A DNA stretch of 64,000 bases. It comes from Chloroflexota bacterium (GTDB lineage: Bacteria; Chloroflexota; Dehalococcoidia; Lucifugimonadales; UBA3495). The position numbers were made by a program, and so were the translations under genes. Positions within the stretch are counted from its first letter, which is position 1, and each line of letters starts with the position of its first letter. Under the pieces are notes generated by a model. It made no database searches, was not told the DNA's origin, and saw only the letters and a program-made list of their open reading frames with translations. The stretch covers positions 1 through 64,000 of the forward strand of contig JAPOQH010000108.1 of NCBI GenBank assembly GCA_026710825.1, given 5' to 3'. Positions 708 through 9,243 of the stretch are shown here, piece by piece.

Positions 708-1718
708 CTACAGGGCGTGCAGCGCGGGTATGACCTCTCGGCCCACCAGGTCGATGTGCTCAAGCACCTTGGCCTGGGACATCTCCGGGTAGAACAGCCG
801 CAGGGCCACGTCGGTGAATCCCATCTCGTGGTAGGCCGCGATCTGCTCCACGCATTCCTCCGGGCTGCCCACCAGGAAGGTATCGTCCATCAGCGTTTCC
901 AGGTCGCCGGTCACTTTGCGGGTCAACTCGGCGTCGGTGCCGTGCAGTCCGTGTTGGGCATAGACCTCGTACTTTCGCGCCAAGTTTGCCCTTGCCCTCT
1001 CCAGCGCCGCGCGGGTCGGAGCGCAGAAGAACTCGCGGACGATCACCATGTCCTCGGGAACGTCGTGGCCGTTCTCCTCGAGGGTCTGGTGGTACAGCGA
1101 TATCTGGTGGCGGATGGTGGCGTTGGACTGGGCGGGTCCGACGTAAAAAATGTCGCCGCTCCGACCGACCCGACGCACCGCCGGATCGCTCATCGCGGCC
1201 TGCCAGATCTTGGGATGAGGCTTCTGGTAAGGCCGGGCCGTGGGCCGCGCTCCGGTCACGTTGTAGTAGCGGCCGTGATGGGTCACCTCGTCGTCGCTCC
1301 ACAGCCGGCGCATCAGGCCGAGGGCTTCGGTACACCGGGCGCCGCGCTGAGACATCTTCGTCCCGAAGGCTTCAAACTCCTCCGGGCGGTAGCCCAGACC
1401 GATGCCGAGGATGAAGCGCCCTTCCGCGATGTGATCCAGGGTCGCCGCCTGCTCGGCGACGTCCACTGGATTCAACAACGGCAGCAGCAGGACCGAGGTT
1501 GCCAGCATCATGTCGCCCGGCTCGGCGGCCAACCGCGCCAGCACCGGCCAGGGCTGAAAGTGCTGGAAGGGGTCGATCAGGTAGTGATGGCCCCAGCAGT
1601 AGATGTCGAAGCCGGCGTCGCGGCAGGCCCGGAACTGCTCCAGGTGGTTTTGCCACTGTTGCTGGTGGTCGATGCTGTCCCGCTGCACCACGTGCCCAAC
1701 CTGATAACCAACACGCAT
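708..1718 (-). CDS. Luciferase-like (LLM class) flavin-dependent oxidoreductase
   Basis: A 336-residue protein of normal length for the bacterial luciferase-like TIM-barrel family, which uses FMNH2 or F420 to oxidise organic substrates. Visible family features are the N-terminal barrel strand with GFDIYCWGHHY (about residues 36-46), LLLPLLNPVDVAEQAATLD (about 77-95), and the GRFILGIGLGYRPEEF block that follows, plus a C-terminal VGSPEECVEQIAAY helix. The start ATG is preceded by GGTGAG. It is the last gene of a four-gene minus-strand run with the NHL propeller, the UGSC selenoprotein and the DGLPVVPP-type protein, with a 71-base gap to the NHL gene. A paralogue sits at 26740-27741. The substrate is unknown; these enzymes are commonly monooxygenases on sulfur, amine or ketone compounds. 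Confidence 0.9.
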   Translation of the reverse strand: MRVGYQVGHVVQRDSIDHQQQWQNHLEQFRACRDAGFDIYCWGHHYLIDPFQHFQPWPVLARLAAEPGDMMLATSVLLLPLLNPVDVAEQAATLDHIAEGRFILGIGLGYRPEEFEAFGTKMSQRGARCTEALGLMRRLWSDDEVTHHGRYYNVTGARPTARPYQKPHPKIWQAAMSDPAVRRVGRSGDIFYVGPAQSNATIRHQISLYHQTLEENGHDVPEDMVIVREFFCAPTRAALERARANLARKYEVYAQHGLHGTDAELTRKVTGDLETLMDDTFLVGSPEECVEQIAAYHEMGFTDVALRLFYPEMSQAKVLEHIDLVGREVIPALHAL

Positions 1719-1789
1719 ATACTCACCCTGTCCCGCCTGAGTGCGGGCGGCCTGAACTGCTCCCAGACGGCGTTGCCACAGACCGGACG

Positions 1790-2683
1790 CTAGGCTCCGA
1801 CGTGGCGGTATTTGATCAGGCGCTGGCCTTCCAGGTTCTGGTTCACGTAGATGTCACCGTGGGAATCGACCCAGACGGCGTGGGCGCCGTTGCCCCACCC
1901 GGCGTCCGAGGGGCTGCCCCAGCGGGCCAGCACGTTGCCGTTGATGTCCAGGATGGACATGAAACCGTCCAGTTCCGGCACGTACACCGCCAGGTCGTCG
2001 TCGATGTAGATGTCGCAGGGCCGAGCCAGGTCCGTCCACTGCTCCAGATAATTGCCCTCGGAGTCGAAGATCTGCATGCGGTTGTTCTCGCGGTCGGCCA
2101 CGAACACCCGCCCGTCGGTGTGAACCCAGACCCCGTGGGGAACGTGGAATTCGCCGGGGCCGGTCTTTCCCGGTTGCCCCCAGGAGTCCACCAGCTCGCC
2201 GTCGGGCGTGAACCGGTGCACCCGGGCGTTGCCGTAGCCGTCGGAGATGTACAGCAGACCCTCCGGGGAGATGGCGATGTCGCTGGGGCGGTTGAATGGG
2301 CCGGCCGCCCTGACCGCCGGGTCGCTGTAGTTGCCCGACCAGCCGGTGTCCGAGGGCTTGTCCCACTCGCCCATGGTCATCAGCAGGTTGCCGCTGGGGT
2401 CGTATTTGAGAACCACATGGCTGTTCTTGACCGGCAGGTAGAGGTTCTCATCGTCGTCGATGAACATGCCGTGGGCGTCGGTGAGGACGCCCTCGCCCCA
2501 GGAGGCGAGATAGTTGCCGTCCCGGTCAAGGACGATCAGCGGGTGGTCTCCGCGGTTGAAGAGATACACCCGGTCCTCGGAGTCGGTGACGATGGCCGTC
2601 TGTCCCAGGACCCATCCCTCGGGGAGCTTTTCCCAGTTCTCGACCTGCTCGTAGGTGTACTTGCCATTGCCGACGGTGGTCAT
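1790..2683 (-). CDS. NHL-repeat six-bladed beta-propeller protein
   Basis: The 297-residue product is a string of NHL-type blades: repeated segments such as GDHPLIVLDRDGNYLASWGEG, SDGYGNARVHRFTPDGELVDSWG, ADRENNRMQIFDSEGNYLEQW and LDINGNVLARWG, each with the hydrophobic-F-x-x-D/E-G-N/E-x-hydrophobic-xxW pattern. There is no signal peptide, so it should be cytoplasmic. Similar proteins include the peptidylglycine amidating-lyase fold and scaffold propellers, but I see no basis for a catalytic assignment. GAGGAGG precedes the ATG. It lies 54 bases after the UGSC selenoprotein in the same direction and is probably co-transcribed with it, so it may bind or scaffold that protein or act on a related small molecule. 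Confidence 0.85.
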   Translation of the reverse strand: MTTVGNGKYTYEQVENWEKLPEGWVLGQTAIVTDSEDRVYLFNRGDHPLIVLDRDGNYLASWGEGVLTDAHGMFIDDDENLYLPVKNSHVVLKYDPSGNLLMTMGEWDKPSDTGWSGNYSDPAVRAAGPFNRPSDIAISPEGLLYISDGYGNARVHRFTPDGELVDSWGQPGKTGPGEFHVPHGVWVHTDGRVFVADRENNRMQIFDSEGNYLEQWTDLARPCDIYIDDDLAVYVPELDGFMSILDINGNVLARWGSPSDAGWGNGAHAVWVDSHGDIYVNQNLEGQRLIKYRHVGA

Positions 2684-2737
2684 TTCGTACCCTCCTCGAT
2701 CGCGCCCGGCGTCCCCGGGAGTTGGTTGTTCGTTGCT

Positions 2738-3295
2738 CTAGTAGGTTGTCAGCGTATCGATAACCGCCTGTTCCAGTTCGCCGGCACGGACTGCCACCTG
2801 CTCGGGCGTCAACCCACCCAGGGGATGCGGGAATCCCAGGGGCCGGAAATCGGGACGGCCAAAGGTGCGCGCCTGGCGGAAGGCCGAGTTCAGGAACGGG
2901 TCGGTGCAGAGCACCACCGTGGGGATGCCGAGGTTTTCGAGGGTCATTGCGTCGTGCACACTGCACGCGGTGCAGGAGCCTCAATCGGCGATCGCGGTCA
3001 CCACGAAATCGCACCGCTCGGAAAGGTCGCTGATGATCTCATCGGCAGCCGGCCGGGAATAGACGAACTTGTCCACGGCGACGACGTCGCCCAGCTCCAG
3101 GTCTTTGGCCATCCGCTCGCCTATGTTGCGCAGCAACAGGGCAGCGTTGGCCTTGCGATTGCCCAGAAAGCCGCCGACCTTGTCGTGCAGCGTGTCCAGA
3201 CGGGGCGCGGCCCGCCAGCGGGACGCCGCGTCCGGGTCGATGGGCAGGGCCAGGCCCAGTTCCCGCATCCGGTCCTGATAGTTCGTGACAGTCAT
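2738..3295 (-). CDS. UGSC family selenoprotein, in-frame TGA read as selenocysteine
   Basis: Read straight through, 3295 to 2738 encodes 185 residues with one TGA at 2983-2981 (codon 105) before the true stop. The TGA is followed by GGC TCC TGC, giving the U-G-S-C-T signature that names the UGSC (seleno)protein family, in which U may be Cys. The frame continues with normal-looking protein (ACSVHDAMTLENLGIP, then a C-terminal helix) to residue 185. The ATG is preceded by AGAGGGAAAG. A SECIS-like hairpin follows the TGA (separate entry). By the family pattern the U/C residues probably form a redox centre; the reaction is not known. The upstream neighbour is a DGLPVVPP-type protein, 33 bases away. 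Without the machinery for Sec insertion in view, the alternative is a nonsense mutation with a 104-residue product; the intact downstream frame and exact motif argue against that. Confidence 0.85.
2950..2969 (-). promoter_or_regulatory. Candidate bacterial SECIS hairpin for the UGSC selenocysteine codon
   Basis: On the minus strand, CGC-GTGCA (2969-2962) can pair with TGCAC-G-CG (2958-2950, one bulged A), leaving a three-base loop GTG at 2961-2959. Nineteen bases separate the TGA from the loop and the loop begins with G, both within the range known for bacterial SECIS elements (short stem, small loop with a G, loop about 16-37 bases after UGA). A competing perfect six-pair hairpin CTGCAC/GTGCAG lies at 2975-2961 but its loop would be too close to the TGA. 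The structure is drawn by eye. Confidence 0.55.
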
Positions 3296-3328
3296 CTTTC
3301 CCTCTGCAATTTTGGAATCGTGAATCTT

Positions 3329-4363
3329 CTAGCAACCCGTGATCTTCCGCGTGACCCGCTGAGAGCCCCAGCCGGGCAGGTAGACGGAGTGGGGGCCGCC
3401 GGCGCCGCCGGCGACGAAAATGTTGATGCGCTCGGGGGCGCGCACCACGGGCACCATCTGGTCGTCGTCGTCAGCGTCGACGTACCTGGGCCAGAAGTGG
3501 CCGCGGCGGGAGTCGCCCTGGGGCGGGCCGCCCTGGCGGATTTTCGATACCGGCTTGCGGGCGTGCTCGTAGAGGAACTGGCGGATGTCCCGCTTGTTCC
3601 AGCCGTCGCGGTGGAGGAACTTGGCGTGCTCGGGGCCAATGACCACGAAGGTGTCGCCCATCACGTACATCTGGACGTTGCCCAGGGTGCACATGGTGTC
3701 GGCCAGCACGGTCAGGAAGTTCCGCGAGTGGGAGGCGTGGTACATGATGTTGTGAGGCGCCTCCGCCGGGAACACCGACACCGTGCTGTCGGTGGGGGCA
3801 AAGCCCAGTTCGACGTGCATCGGCTCCCAGGGGTTGGCGTCCTCGTCCTCGGCGACGCAGTAGGTGTAGGCGCCGGGGTGGCCGAAGGTGGCCTTGTTGG
3901 TCTCGCCGGGGATCGCACCGCCCAGGTTGAGCAGGGCCAGCTTGACCGCGCGGCCGATGGTGGCGTTGGCACGCCAGCCGGAGCCGAAGCAGTTGTAGCC
4001 GCCGTTGATGTCCAGTTCCTTGACGATGGGGCCGTTGACGATCAGCAGCGGGGTGTGGATGCCGGTGGAGCACATCACGCCGCGCAGGTTGAACCGCTCG
4101 TCCATCATCGCTTCAAGTGCGGTGATGATCACCGGCATGTGCTCGGGCCGGCAGCCCGCCATGACGGCGTTTACCGCGATGCGCTCGACGGTGGCCCGTC
4201 CGCCCAGTGGGGGCAGTTCTGCGATGAGCTCGTCGCCTCCGCGGCCCGTGGCATCCACGAACTTGCGGACCAGGTCTTCGGACGGCGGCACGACCGGCAG
4301 ACCATCGGTCCACCCGGTCTCGAACATCAACTCGATGGCATCAACAACGTCGGTGGCAAGCAT
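3329..4363 (-). CDS. DGLPVVPP-motif protein, partner of the UGSC selenoprotein
   Basis: A 344-residue soluble protein beginning with a helix and the segment TGWTDGLPVVPPSEDLV (about residues 16-32), an N-terminal signature I associate with uncharacterised proteins found next to, and sometimes joined with, UGSC-family genes; that association is from memory and not checked here. It has several cysteines, including MCSTG (around residue 97), YNCFGSG (around 123) and a C-terminal Gly-Cys just before the TAG stop. I cannot recognise a catalytic domain. It is the first gene of the operon; a near-consensus promoter sits at 4439-4411, and the UGSC start follows 33 bases after its stop. The tight arrangement suggests the two proteins act together, for example in a thiol or selenol redox step, which is inference. 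Confidence 0.7.
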   Translation of the reverse strand: MLATDVVDAIELMFETGWTDGLPVVPPSEDLVRKFVDATGRGGDELIAELPPLGGRATVERIAVNAVMAGCRPEHMPVIITALEAMMDERFNLRGVMCSTGIHTPLLIVNGPIVKELDINGGYNCFGSGWRANATIGRAVKLALLNLGGAIPGETNKATFGHPGAYTYCVAEDEDANPWEPMHVELGFAPTDSTVSVFPAEAPHNIMYHASHSRNFLTVLADTMCTLGNVQMYVMGDTFVVIGPEHAKFLHRDGWNKRDIRQFLYEHARKPVSKIRQGGPPQGDSRRGHFWPRYVDADDDDQMVPVVRAPERINIFVAGGAGGPHSVYLPGWGSQRVTRKITGC

Positions 4364-4856
4364 TCTCGGCCCATAAGGATGGTTGGATTGGCCGCAAATC
4401 GGCCTGGGCGAGTGTAATCCGAGCAGATGATGGCGTCAACGCGACAACCTGCTAGGAGCGCTGACGACGCGTCGCGTCGCTGGATGGCCGGGGTAACGCG
4501 AGGGTTCGACGCGACGAAGGGATGTGGATTGTGCTCGCGGGTACTAACTGTTGCCCGAGGGTGCCGGGCGTGACAGGGGCATGCCAACGCTTCAAGGTTG
4601 GTAGCACCGCAGCGCCAAACGTGGGCGCTGCCGGTCAACTGCGCGGGCTGCCCACGATTACCGCGCTGTTGAACCATCACTCCGAGCGGGGCCATCGGCG
4701 GTTCTGTTCAAGCGAGATCATTGACCCTGTGTCGGGCTGCCAGGCACTCTGGATGGCGGTCGCGCTGGACATAGTCGGGGGTATGGCTGTGTGATACGCT
4801 CGAAATATGCGCCTGATATCAAACAGTCCGACCGTGCACACGGGAAACCCCGCAAC
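4364..4856. other. Gene-free divergent intergenic region
   Basis: About 490 bases between the divergent selenoprotein operon and the S9 peptidase gene. It holds the promoter at 4439-4411. The open frames here have no start signal and no recognisable protein. I see no convincing promoter for the peptidase gene. Confidence 0.6.
4411..4439 (-). promoter_or_regulatory. Sigma-70-type promoter of the selenoprotein operon
   Basis: Minus strand: -35 TTGACG at 4439-4434, a 17-base spacer, -10 TACACT at 4416-4411. It lies about 48 bases before the ATG of the first gene (4363). Confidence 0.65.
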
Positions 4857-6915: not shown

Positions 6916-9192
6916 CTATCCCGCTGACACACCGTCAGTGAGGATCACTCCCGAATCCAGCAGGGTTTGGTAACGGCTACCCAGGCCGTGTTCTTCCAGA
7001 ATCTCGCGGGCGTGCGTGCCCGGCTTGGGGGCGGGGATGCCCGGGCGCACCGGAGTGCGTGAAAGCCGAGGAGCGGGACCGCAGGTGGTCACCGGTCCCA
7101 GGTCGTCGTGCTCCCGGGTGAGGCTGAGTCCGTGGGACTCCACCCAGGGGTCGGTCATCAGCTCCCTGACGTTGGTGATCACACGCTGCGCGCCGATGCC
7201 GGCGGCGGTCAGTCGCTCCACCCAGGACGCCACGCTGTGGACCTGGAATCGCTCTTCCAGCGAGGAAGACAAGGCATCGCCCCTGAGGGAGTCTATGCCC
7301 GAGAGTCCGTCGAGACCTGACATGCTGGACAGGGCAGACTCAGGGGCTCCGATGAAGAGCCAGCCGTCGCTGGCCTGGTAGGCCCGGTGCAACGGGCCGG
7401 TTCCCAGGGCGTCCTGCCCGCTGGTCTCGTTCCACTGCTTGCCCTCGTACATCTGCATGAAGGGCGATTGCAGCGTCATGGCGGTGTAGGCCAGGGCCGA
7501 GTCTACGTGCTGGCCCTCTCCGGTGCGCTGCCGGTGGAGCAGTGCCAGGGCCACTCCGTATGCTCCCATGAAACCGGTGCCGTAGTCGTTTACGGGGTTG
7601 GGCTGCGACTCGGGGACGCCGTCACCGCCGAAGCGGCGGGTCATGCCGGCGGTGGCCTGGGCAAACCCCTCGTGGCCAGGGCGCTCCGCCCAGGGGCCGA
7701 TGTGCCCGTAGGCGTTCAACGAGGCGTAGATTATGTCGGGTTTGCGCTTTCGGACTTCATCGTAACCCAGGCCAAGCCTCTCCAGGCTGCCGGCCCGGTA
7801 GTTCTGGGCCACCACGTCGGCATCCTCCAGGAGCTTCCAAAATATGTCGCGCCCCTCGTCGGATCGGAGGTCCAGCAGGATGCTGCGTTTGCCCCGGTTG
7901 ATGTCGTTATGCCGGGCCACGGTGGAGCCGCGCCTGGGGTTGTCGATCTTGATGACATTGGCCCCGTACTCGCCCAGCGTGCGGCCCATGGTGGGGCCGG
8001 CCAGGATGATGCACAGGTCCAGCACCTTCACGCCGTCGAGGGCGGCGCGCATGAGGTCCTCGCGCGCGGGAGCATCGGCAGCGGGGCGGGGTTTCAATTC
8101 CGCGAGGATTTCTTCCCGGTGCTGGTCGGGGGTCGGAGCGGGACCGCGCACCGCACCCGGCGTCAGGGACATCCTGGCGTTGACTCCCGGTTGCAGCATC
8201 TTGCCGTGGGTGGGGTCGTCAACCTCCACCACCATCTGCGAGGCACGGGCGTGGGGATGGTCAAACCACTCAGCGCTGGTTCGGCACACCGCCCCTTCGC
8301 TGCCCGCCTCGGCGATCAGGTCTTCCCATTCCTGCGCGGTTCGAGTCAGGAAGAGATCGTGAATGCGCTGCTGGGCTTCGGAGCGGAATTGTGGGTCGTC
8401 CAGGGGATGGTCGAAATCGGTCAACCCTTCGTCATCCCAGGATGTGATGCCGGCGGCTTCAACGAACTGCCGGAAGTTCTGGTTGCCGGGGCCGCCGAAG
8501 CGCACGTACTCACCGTCACTGCACTGAAAGATGCCGCCCCACAACTCTTGCAGTGTGGGCGCGGTCGGGGGAGCGTTGTGGACCCGAACGCCGAAACGCC
8601 CGATGGACTGGAACATGCTGTCAAACAGCGGAACCTCGATCCGTTGGCCCACGCCATCGCGCTCCCGGACGTTCAGGGCGACGGTGATGGCCACCACCGA
8701 CTGGAAGGCGCCATAAACGGAGGCGATGGGAATGGCCGTATAAACCGGACGCGGCCTGTTCGGGTCGGGCGGGCGGAAGGTGGCAGACGCGGCTCCGACG
8801 ACGCCCTCGTAAGCGGGCATGGCCGCCCTGGGATCGTCCGACGCGAATCCTGGAATGGAGCAATACACCAGGCTGGGATTGGCCCTGGTCATCTCCTCGG
8901 GTCCGAGACCCAACCGGTCCATGGCGCCGGGCCGGAAGTTCTCGATCACCACGTCGGCGCTCTGGATGAGGGACCGGGCAATGGCAGCGTTATCCTCCCG
9001 CTTGAGGTCCAGGGTTATGCTGCGCTTGCCCCGGTTCCAGGTTGAGTTGGCCGGAGTCTCCCAGCGGGGCCCGCCGGGTGGGTCAATCCGCACCACGTCT
9101 GCGCCCTGGTCCGCCAGCAACATTCCTGCCAGCGGGCCGGAGATGTACTGCCCGAAGTCGATTACGCGAATGTGTTCCAGCGCTCCTGCCAT
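6916..9192 (-). CDS. Tandem class III CoA-transferase (two fused CaiB/BaiF domains)
   Basis: 758 residues, about twice a CaiB domain. Half one starts with IRVIDFGQYISGPLAGMLLADQ and half two, at about residue 385, with VKVLDLCIILAGPTMGRTLG; each has its own KRSITLDLK / KRSILLDLR and ENFRPGAMDRLGLG / QNYRAGSLERLGLG blocks. These enzymes move CoA between carboxylic acids through an aspartyl anhydride (Asp169 in formyl-CoA transferase). By alignment to that enzyme, half one has Ser158 at this site (PIASVYGAF) while half two has Asp536 (VNDYGTG), so only half two looks catalytic. Since class III enzymes are interlocked dimers, the fusion may form a one-chain pseudo-dimer. The start at 9192 is chosen over 9207 because GGAAGG sits six to seven bases before it. 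A promoter lies at 9272-9244. The acid substrate is unknown. Confidence 0.9.
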   Translation of the reverse strand: MAGALEHIRVIDFGQYISGPLAGMLLADQGADVVRIDPPGGPRWETPANSTWNRGKRSITLDLKREDNAAIARSLIQSADVVIENFRPGAMDRLGLGPEEMTRANPSLVYCSIPGFASDDPRAAMPAYEGVVGAASATFRPPDPNRPRPVYTAIPIASVYGAFQSVVAITVALNVRERDGVGQRIEVPLFDSMFQSIGRFGVRVHNAPPTAPTLQELWGGIFQCSDGEYVRFGGPGNQNFRQFVEAAGITSWDDEGLTDFDHPLDDPQFRSEAQQRIHDLFLTRTAQEWEDLIAEAGSEGAVCRTSAEWFDHPHARASQMVVEVDDPTHGKMLQPGVNARMSLTPGAVRGPAPTPDQHREEILAELKPRPAADAPAREDLMRAALDGVKVLDLCIILAGPTMGRTLGEYGANVIKIDNPRRGSTVARHNDINRGKRSILLDLRSDEGRDIFWKLLEDADVVAQNYRAGSLERLGLGYDEVRKRKPDIIYASLNAYGHIGPWAERPGHEGFAQATAGMTRRFGGDGVPESQPNPVNDYGTGFMGAYGVALALLHRQRTGEGQHVDSALAYTAMTLQSPFMQMYEGKQWNETSGQDALGTGPLHRAYQASDGWLFIGAPESALSSMSGLDGLSGIDSLRGDALSSSLEERFQVHSVASWVERLTAAGIGAQRVITNVRELMTDPWVESHGLSLTREHDDLGPVTTCGPAPRLSRTPVRPGIPAPKPGTHAREILEEHGLGSRYQTLLDSGVILTDGVSAG

Positions 9193-9243
9193 ATCTAAAC
9201 CTTCCATGTGATTGACCGAATTTTGCCGTCGTCGATTTAGGGC

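Follow-up and report, generated by a model that had tools for sequence, protein, structure and literature searches.

A UGSC-family selenoprotein gene of a Chloroflexota bacterium and its adjacent partner as the probable parts of one selenoenzyme

The question raised by this locus is how a reading frame of the UGSC family interrupted by a TGA codon is to be understood, and what the protein that it encodes could be doing in the cell. The window, that is, the whole stretch of 64,000 nucleotides analysed here (positions 1 to 64,000 of contig JAPOQH010000108.1, assembly GCA_026710825.1, from a Chloroflexota bacterium), carries this frame on its minus strand at 2738..3295, with the TGA at 2981..2983, and just upstream of it, also on the minus strand, a gene for a protein of 344 amino acids at 3329..4363, here called the partner. 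We consider it likely that the frame encodes a genuine UGSC selenoprotein, which would be the selenocysteine (Sec) subunit of a two-part enzyme formed with the partner, with a Sec chemistry like that of GrdB, and we add, as a speculation, that the nine copies present in the genome would act on different substrates.

From 3295 to 2738 on the minus strand there is an ATG followed by 184 codons and a TAG, with a single in-frame TGA (2983-2981) that occupies codon 105 and is directly followed by GGC TCC TGC, which gives U105-G-S-C108 in translation, the beginning of the motif U-G-S-C-T-A-C; the description of an otherwise open frame of 185 codons, made earlier in a sequence-only reading, stood when the sequence was read again. 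Under table 11 the gene is split into two frames (2981-3295 and 2738-2959). Read through the TGA, the 185-residue protein matches the Pfam profile PF24696 (UGSC) at E=5.7e-45, with 154 bits against a cut-off of 25, and NF041046 with 126.8 bits, only just above its cut-off of 125; these matches bear out the proposed family and, at the level of sequence, indicate that the frame is not a chance one. An AGAGGG resembling a ribosome-binding site lies 5′ of the ATG in our own reading of the sequence. On the opposite strand, an open frame of 972 codons (1499-4417, plus strand) spans the partner, the UGSC gene and the NHL-repeat gene that follows; it looks like a shadow frame in G+C-rich sequence, and a gene caller could favour it.

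The same interruption is found in the relatives. One TGA lies within the UGSC motif in all 43 related loci, which come from other assemblies, namely metagenome-assembled genomes of Chloroflexota/Dehalococcoidia and SAR202, some of them with two loci. When the window is aligned with 42 of these (43 rows; the frameshifted L055 was left out), the Sec position is invariant, as are positions 106 and 108, and S107 is nearly so. Across the phylum, UGSC was found in 32 of 301 Chloroflexota genomes, with up to 11 copies per genome and 77 matches in total, 74 with one TGA and three with none. Of these three, one is part of a split gene; in the other two (L179:7127-7573 and L180:436-906) Thr or Met, judged by eye, takes the place of Sec. 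Each of these two has a partner downstream, and they are perhaps non-catalytic copies. No Cys form occurs among the 301 genomes, and in plasmid records four genes have TGA and nine Cys, so that the conservation of Sec or Cys at position 105, suggested as a check on the recoding, holds in nearly all matches.

The source genome, a draft of 3.86 Mb in 137 contigs with a completeness of 91.67% and an estimated contamination of 4.77%, contains the Sec pathway that had been predicted for this organism: a tRNA-Sec with the anticodon TCA (66.4 bits), selA (548 bits), selB (366 bits), and selD (377 bits), which itself carries an in-frame TGA. ARAGORN was applied to the eight stronger of the 16 matches of the tRNA-Sec model, and the seven other matches checked are ordinary tRNAs. 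As a marker of Sec use across the phylum selA was rejected, as it passes the cut-off in 243 of the 301 genomes and discriminates little; by E-value it is strong in 31 of the 32 UGSC genomes, with only E=3.4e-4 in the remaining one (G217). A further probable selenoprotein of the source genome (L188, G000:C9:13198-13611) consists of a short PF07355 (PrdB/GrdB-like) protein followed by a TGA in U-P-L-C.

The signal for recoding would be a Sec insertion sequence (SECIS) whose apical hairpin lies at 2953..2967 of the minus strand, with a stem of 2967-2962 and 2958-2953 and a GTG loop at 2961-2959; a hairpin just 3′ of the UGA, with a G opening the loop, is thus present. In bacteria the SECIS loop usually lies 16-37 nucleotides (nt) from the UGA. 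Here it is the loop that comes 19 nt after the TGA; the sequence-only reading let the whole hairpin (2969-2950) start at that distance, which has to be corrected, as the stem starts 13 nt after the TGA. Folded alone, the hairpin of the window is unremarkable (z +0.19 to -1.96 against shuffled sequence), and folding of single sequences was given up as evidence in favour of covariation. Folded singly, 109 of 116 stretches form a hairpin whose loop lies 15-25 nt downstream of the UGA, at exactly 19 nt in 78 cases; the seven exceptions include one copy of the source genome (L076).

The covariation alignment holds 85 of the 97 distinct Sec stretches, each of 45 nt (the 12 of USTC type were left out, and L046, which contains N, had been dropped earlier). 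In the six-pair stem 92.9% of cells are standard pairs, compared with 80.4 +/- 0.9 in shuffles and 12-66% when the stem is slid; double changes occupy 44 cells and further pair types number 17, each against 8.7 in shuffles, and none of 500 shuffles matched any of these three values. The number of stem pairs with any double change, five against 3.1, was equalled in 22 of 500 shuffles. The stem is kept while the encoded residues differ, as in TGC-AGT-GTG-CAC (C-S-V-H), TGG-AGT-GTC-CAC (W-S-V-H), GCC-AGT-GTG-GCC (A-S-V-A) and TAC-AGT-TTG-TAC (Y-S-L-Y). In the window and 25 orthologues, the mean synonymous difference at codons 110-115 is 0.026, against 0.436 at 152 other codons, and no other among the 172 six-codon windows has so low a value. 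It is because of this comparative evidence, rather than of folding, that the hairpin is taken as a real SECIS. The 12 homologues set apart (L165, L166, L168-L171 and L173-L178) have the motif USTC, each with a partner downstream, and those whose folds were printed have a GGTC loop at 17 nt and not GTG at 19.

Because the 185-codon UGSC frame, the Sec genes, the covariation of the hairpin and the near-frozen synonymous sites concur, the reading of the TGA as Sec proposed earlier can be taken to be as secure as computation allows. In itself the window gene is ordinary for its family.

What sets the locus apart, and does not figure in the sequence-only reading, are the further copies, the partner and the relation to GrdB. 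The source genome has nine UGSC copies with exactly one TGA each, seven of them with the motif UGSC and the other two with UGGC, which are only 22-45% identical to one another, as expected of copies that are old and diverged. They do not form one group in a tree of 114 rows, where they require 7 changes, at least 6 of them forced by starred branches; the tree has many long branches, and its deep joins are unsure.

The partner at 3329-4363 has no Pfam or NCBIfam match, and a search of PDB sequences with it gave nothing below E=0.68. Nonetheless a homologue stands on the same strand near or fused to most UGSC genes: in the stretches of 9 of 9 own copies (at C87 another gene sits between, and at C48 both proteins share one open frame), of 42 of 43 relatives, and of 61 of 65 other Sec copies of the phylum. 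The two genes lie at most 300 bases apart in 104 of 112 cases, with the partner upstream in 65 and downstream in 47, and in 22 of 117 they are fused, UGSC coming first in every one. Of the five copies without a partner, three are at most 450 bases from a contig end, and two (L061 and L121) are not; L128 has two UGSC copies with one common partner. Among the 301 genomes, 31 have both families, one only UGSC (G251), one only the partner (G073) and 268 neither (Fisher p=6e-40, with genomes treated as independent, which they are not quite). The pairwise distances of both proteins correlate at r=0.94 in 101 of the 117 pairs, with a shuffled maximum of 0.16, a correlation partly due to shared descent; among the nine own pairs r=0.60 (p=0.004). 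The nine partners are 30-58% identical to one another. The partner alignment (the window and 32 of the 43 related loci) has a single invariant Cys, C71; left out were L046 and L055 (runs of X), the near copies L035, L037, L039, L052 and L056, L050, L059 and L072, which are cut by contig ends, and L061, where no partner was found. From the pairing, the gene fusions and the co-occurrence we infer that UGSC and the partner would be two parts of one enzyme.

This association reaches beyond the phylum. A search of 72,556 plasmid records found UGSC in 13, always with the partner adjacent, and the partner in 24, of which 11 lack a UGSC match at E 1e-3. The TGA is found in four of the 13, three from Paracoccus, near copies of one another, and one from Acidovorax, and Cys in the other nine (five haloarchaea, Roseovarius, Embleya, Arthrobacter and Variovorax); in Halalkalicoccus and Halorientalis (L218, L219) the Cys type has a partner gene on both sides. 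Annotation splits or truncates the gene at the TGA in Paracoccus (L222:2977-3546) and Acidovorax (L214:5974-6264), and names it hypothetical. Some plasmid neighbours are coenzyme A (CoA) transferases, luciferase-like (LLM) oxidoreductase, PEP mutase-like lyases and TTT/TRAP uptake proteins. The gene order is trxB-trxA-partner-UGSC in Arthrobacter and partner-UGSC-trxB in Roseovarius, and an annotated trxB lies two genes away in Variovorax.

As to the kind of chemistry, an indication comes from the comparison of the UGSC alignment with PF07355 proteins. These were drawn from Chloroflexota and extended past the Pfam match, with TGA read through where present; among the ten taken, L187 carries Cys, L190 ended prematurely and was left out, and in the other eight a TGA was read through. 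With hhalign, UGSC aligns to the four long PF07355 proteins at 96.7% and E=4.3e-10 (a single comparison) over 86 columns, with Sec on Sec, and to the short ones alone at 76.3% and E=2.2e-5. With the motifs masked on both sides the match persists (E=1.3e-5, 80.8%), and the reversed controls gave E=0.021-0.036 and the best of 100 column shuffles (50 for each of two alignments) E=0.028. This points to UGSC as a distant homologue, by sequence profile, of the Sec domain of GrdB/PrdB-family proteins, which belong to glycine/betaine reductase and D-proline reductase, with the Sec residues aligned. Of the 117 UGSC rows, 60 retain the final Cys of U-x-x-C-x-x-C, and W, A, G, R, S or Y stands there in the others. 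GRDA and Gly_reductase (PF04723, PF09338) gave no match in the own genome, which does not prove them absent, as the control genomes gave none either.

In the AlphaFold2 (AF2) model of UGSC (predicted local distance difference test, pLDDT, 87.3; predicted template modelling score, pTM, 0.81) five strands and helices alternate, and Sec sits, in our reading, just before the helix after the third strand. A thioredoxin topology was considered for it and is not what the model predicts, and thioredoxin is not among the 50 PDB matches listed by Foldseek. An ArsA ATPase, the best phmmer row from the PDB (E=1e-4), fell to 0.39 with a profile and was discarded as spurious. The partner model has a pLDDT of 79.1.

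The neighbouring genes add a suggestive link to thioredoxin, which is absent beside the window gene. Counting neighbours that cover at least half the query, a TrxB-like gene is found in 9 of 129 UGSC stretches and in none of 13 control stretches; four of the nine belong to the 13 plasmid stretches, four to the 64 of the phylum and one to the 43 of the relatives, and the nine own stretches have none. A link with CoA-transferases was dropped as not specific, with nine of the 129 stretches against three of the 13 controls; all three are among the eight control stretches of the window. A 763-residue protein of CoA-transferase family III encoded in the window (6916-9207, minus strand) has two matched stretches and is likely a double-domain protein. 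Downstream of the UGSC gene the window has an NHL-repeat propeller protein (1790..2683, minus strand; PF01436), conserved in orthologous loci, at >70% identity in 23 of 26 (L032-L057), with one partial at a contig end, and further downstream, in weaker association, an LLM flavin-dependent oxidoreductase (708..1718, minus strand; PF00296), at >70% identity in 15 of the same 26. Neither was retained as a general neighbour of UGSC, since both recur mainly within the orthologous group. A match to FlK, the fluoroacetyl-CoA-specific thioesterase, adjoins one own UGSC copy (L075:6758-7156, plus strand), the sole case in 129 stretches.

If these indications are put together, the host SelA, SelB, SelD and tRNA-Sec would read the UGA as Sec by means of the SECIS directly downstream, and the UGSC protein would be the Sec-bearing subunit, with the adjacent 344-residue partner as the other part. 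By homology with the Sec domain of GrdB/PrdB, the Sec would most likely attack the substrate or perform a reductive cleavage, Cys108 of the U-x-x-C could resolve the resulting selenenyl-sulfide, and thioredoxin with thioredoxin reductase might then reset the enzyme, which would thus be a two-part, possibly thioredoxin-fed, Sec reductase. The nine diverged copies could, more speculatively, each act on different small organic substrates or organic acids. A wider formulation, which we advance tentatively and hold to be somewhat short of an even chance, is that UGSC and its partner constitute an undescribed class of thioredoxin-fed two-subunit selenoenzymes, a minimal relative of glycine and proline reductases that would cleave bonds in small organic acids reductively, having diversified in SAR202-like and other Chloroflexota to as many as about ten versions per genome, with Cys versions in haloarchaea.

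Other explanations have to be set against this one. That the TGA really ends translation or arose by a sequencing error, in a gene broken or split in two, would agree with the two frames of table 11 and with a hairpin that alone folds no better than shuffled sequence; it would have to account for one TGA in the motif in every relative and in all nine own copies, for frozen synonymous sites and compensatory changes downstream, and for a genome that encodes the Sec machinery, and we regard it as scarcely credible. A different proposal would accept the selenoprotein and make of it a general thioredoxin-like redox or antioxidant protein, with the partner as its dedicated reductase or chaperone and not as the other half of a pair that acts catalytically on organic substrates. 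The U-x-x-C is indeed a redox motif, and the TrxB-like neighbours would suit such a role, but the order of strands and helices in the AF2 model is unlike the thioredoxin order as generally known, and the hhalign match ties UGSC to PF07355 proteins. The nine diverged copies and the catabolic neighbours on plasmids (CoA transferases, LLM, TTT/TRAP uptake) suggest different substrates, an argument weakened in its turn by the controls from the window, where CoA-transferase matches are equally common (3 of 8 stretches); on balance this proposal appears unlikely.

More improbable still, in our estimation, is that the partner alone is the enzyme, weakly fumarase-like, and that UGSC merely protects or activates it, even if the partner is the better conserved of the two across the nine paralogues and although, in G073 and 11 of the 24 plasmid records, no UGSC was detected with it. 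Its top Foldseek matches are class I fumarases, at template modelling (TM) scores of 0.29-0.33, too low for a shared fold, and a fumarase relation was rejected on that account. Class I fumarases hold their 4Fe-4S cluster with three Cys, against the one invariant Cys of the partner.

The two-part enzyme that we favour has itself several findings to contend with. The tRNA-Sec, selA, selB and selD genes all lie on contigs other than that of the window, in a draft with the contamination given above, and in L055 the hairpin is missing and the frame is shifted at that place, perhaps through an assembly fault at the palindrome. The first hhalign comparison, with the PF07355 proteins cut to the Pfam match, failed (E=0.044 and 0.2), since those matches end just before the Sec and it was the extension past it that gave the alignment; its targets are uncharacterised Chloroflexota proteins. 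PF07355 does not match the window protein, whose sole listed match, with E values of up to 10 allowed, is PF24696, HMMER filters dropping most weak matches, and hhalign found no homology between the partner and the PF07355 proteins (E 0.15-0.58). The AF2 models were built on 43 rows for UGSC and 33 for the partner, and Foldseek gave for UGSC only generic flavodoxin- or Rossmann-like matches, with TM by query <0.5, and for the partner the weak class I fumarase matches. Lastly, none of the nine own UGSC stretches has a TrxB-like gene, found in nine of 129 overall, and TrxA near UGSC is not enriched (2 of 129 against 1 of 13 controls).

SAR202 bacteria are thought to process dissolved organic matter, and nine diverged copies in a SAR202-like genome suggest a selenium-dependent chemistry on such matter. 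Given the near-obligate partner, the homology to a known class of Sec reductases and the TrxB-like neighbours that several lineages have, the function can be tested directly, and annotation blind to Sec splits or truncates UGSC genes, as in the Paracoccus and Acidovorax plasmid records. The family is among the most abundant selenoproteins of aquatic surveys, with 255 sequences in 37 samples and no specific function assigned in the accessible parts of the survey paper (PMC2398784), where it figures as a major marine family. Other papers also treat it as established and abundant in aquatic settings (PMC9402790, PMC5029168, PMC9312934, PMC7539508, PMC5330540, PMC7435645, PMC13188914), and in what was accessible of this literature neither a specific function beyond a presumed redox role, nor a paired gene, nor a relation to GrdB was found. 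A statement on the UGSC-partner pairing was not found either, in a search that covered neither subscription papers nor preprints, and one for SAR202 and selenoproteins gave no paper. The survey reports a fusion of UGSC with a domain called ‘Unknown_1’, which may be the partner found here, and proposes a ‘Trx-like fold’ for UGSC, which the predicted AF2 model does not fit (PMC2398784).

Compared with known systems, the window gene is like the UGSC family (PF24696, NF041046) in sequence, length, U-G-S-C motif and the SECIS downstream, and differs in having a partner, as no paired gene is described in the accessible family literature. GrdB, protein B of glycine reductase, has the motif U-x-x-C-x-x-C, to which the U-G-S-C-T-A-C of the window is alike, and thioredoxin is part of the glycine reductase system (PMC13188914), a likeness with the UGSC loci that have TrxB-like neighbours; in contrast, the window protein stands alone with 185 residues, whereas the long GrdB-like proteins have about 320 more before the aligned part, and the partner is unrelated by profile to GrdB-like PF07355 proteins. 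The closest parallel for many Sec-type paralogues in one genome is Cloacibacillus porcorum MFA1, with an expanded grdB/farB set (fluoroacetate reductase) that includes eight Sec-type GrdB paralogues, which are grouped with grdE and for which different substrates have been proposed (PMC10838667); there, in an anaerobe, GrdB goes with GrdE, and here a short Sec protein goes with an undescribed partner. The family itself is known, and what is new is its pairing with this partner, the nine-fold set and the homology to GrdB.
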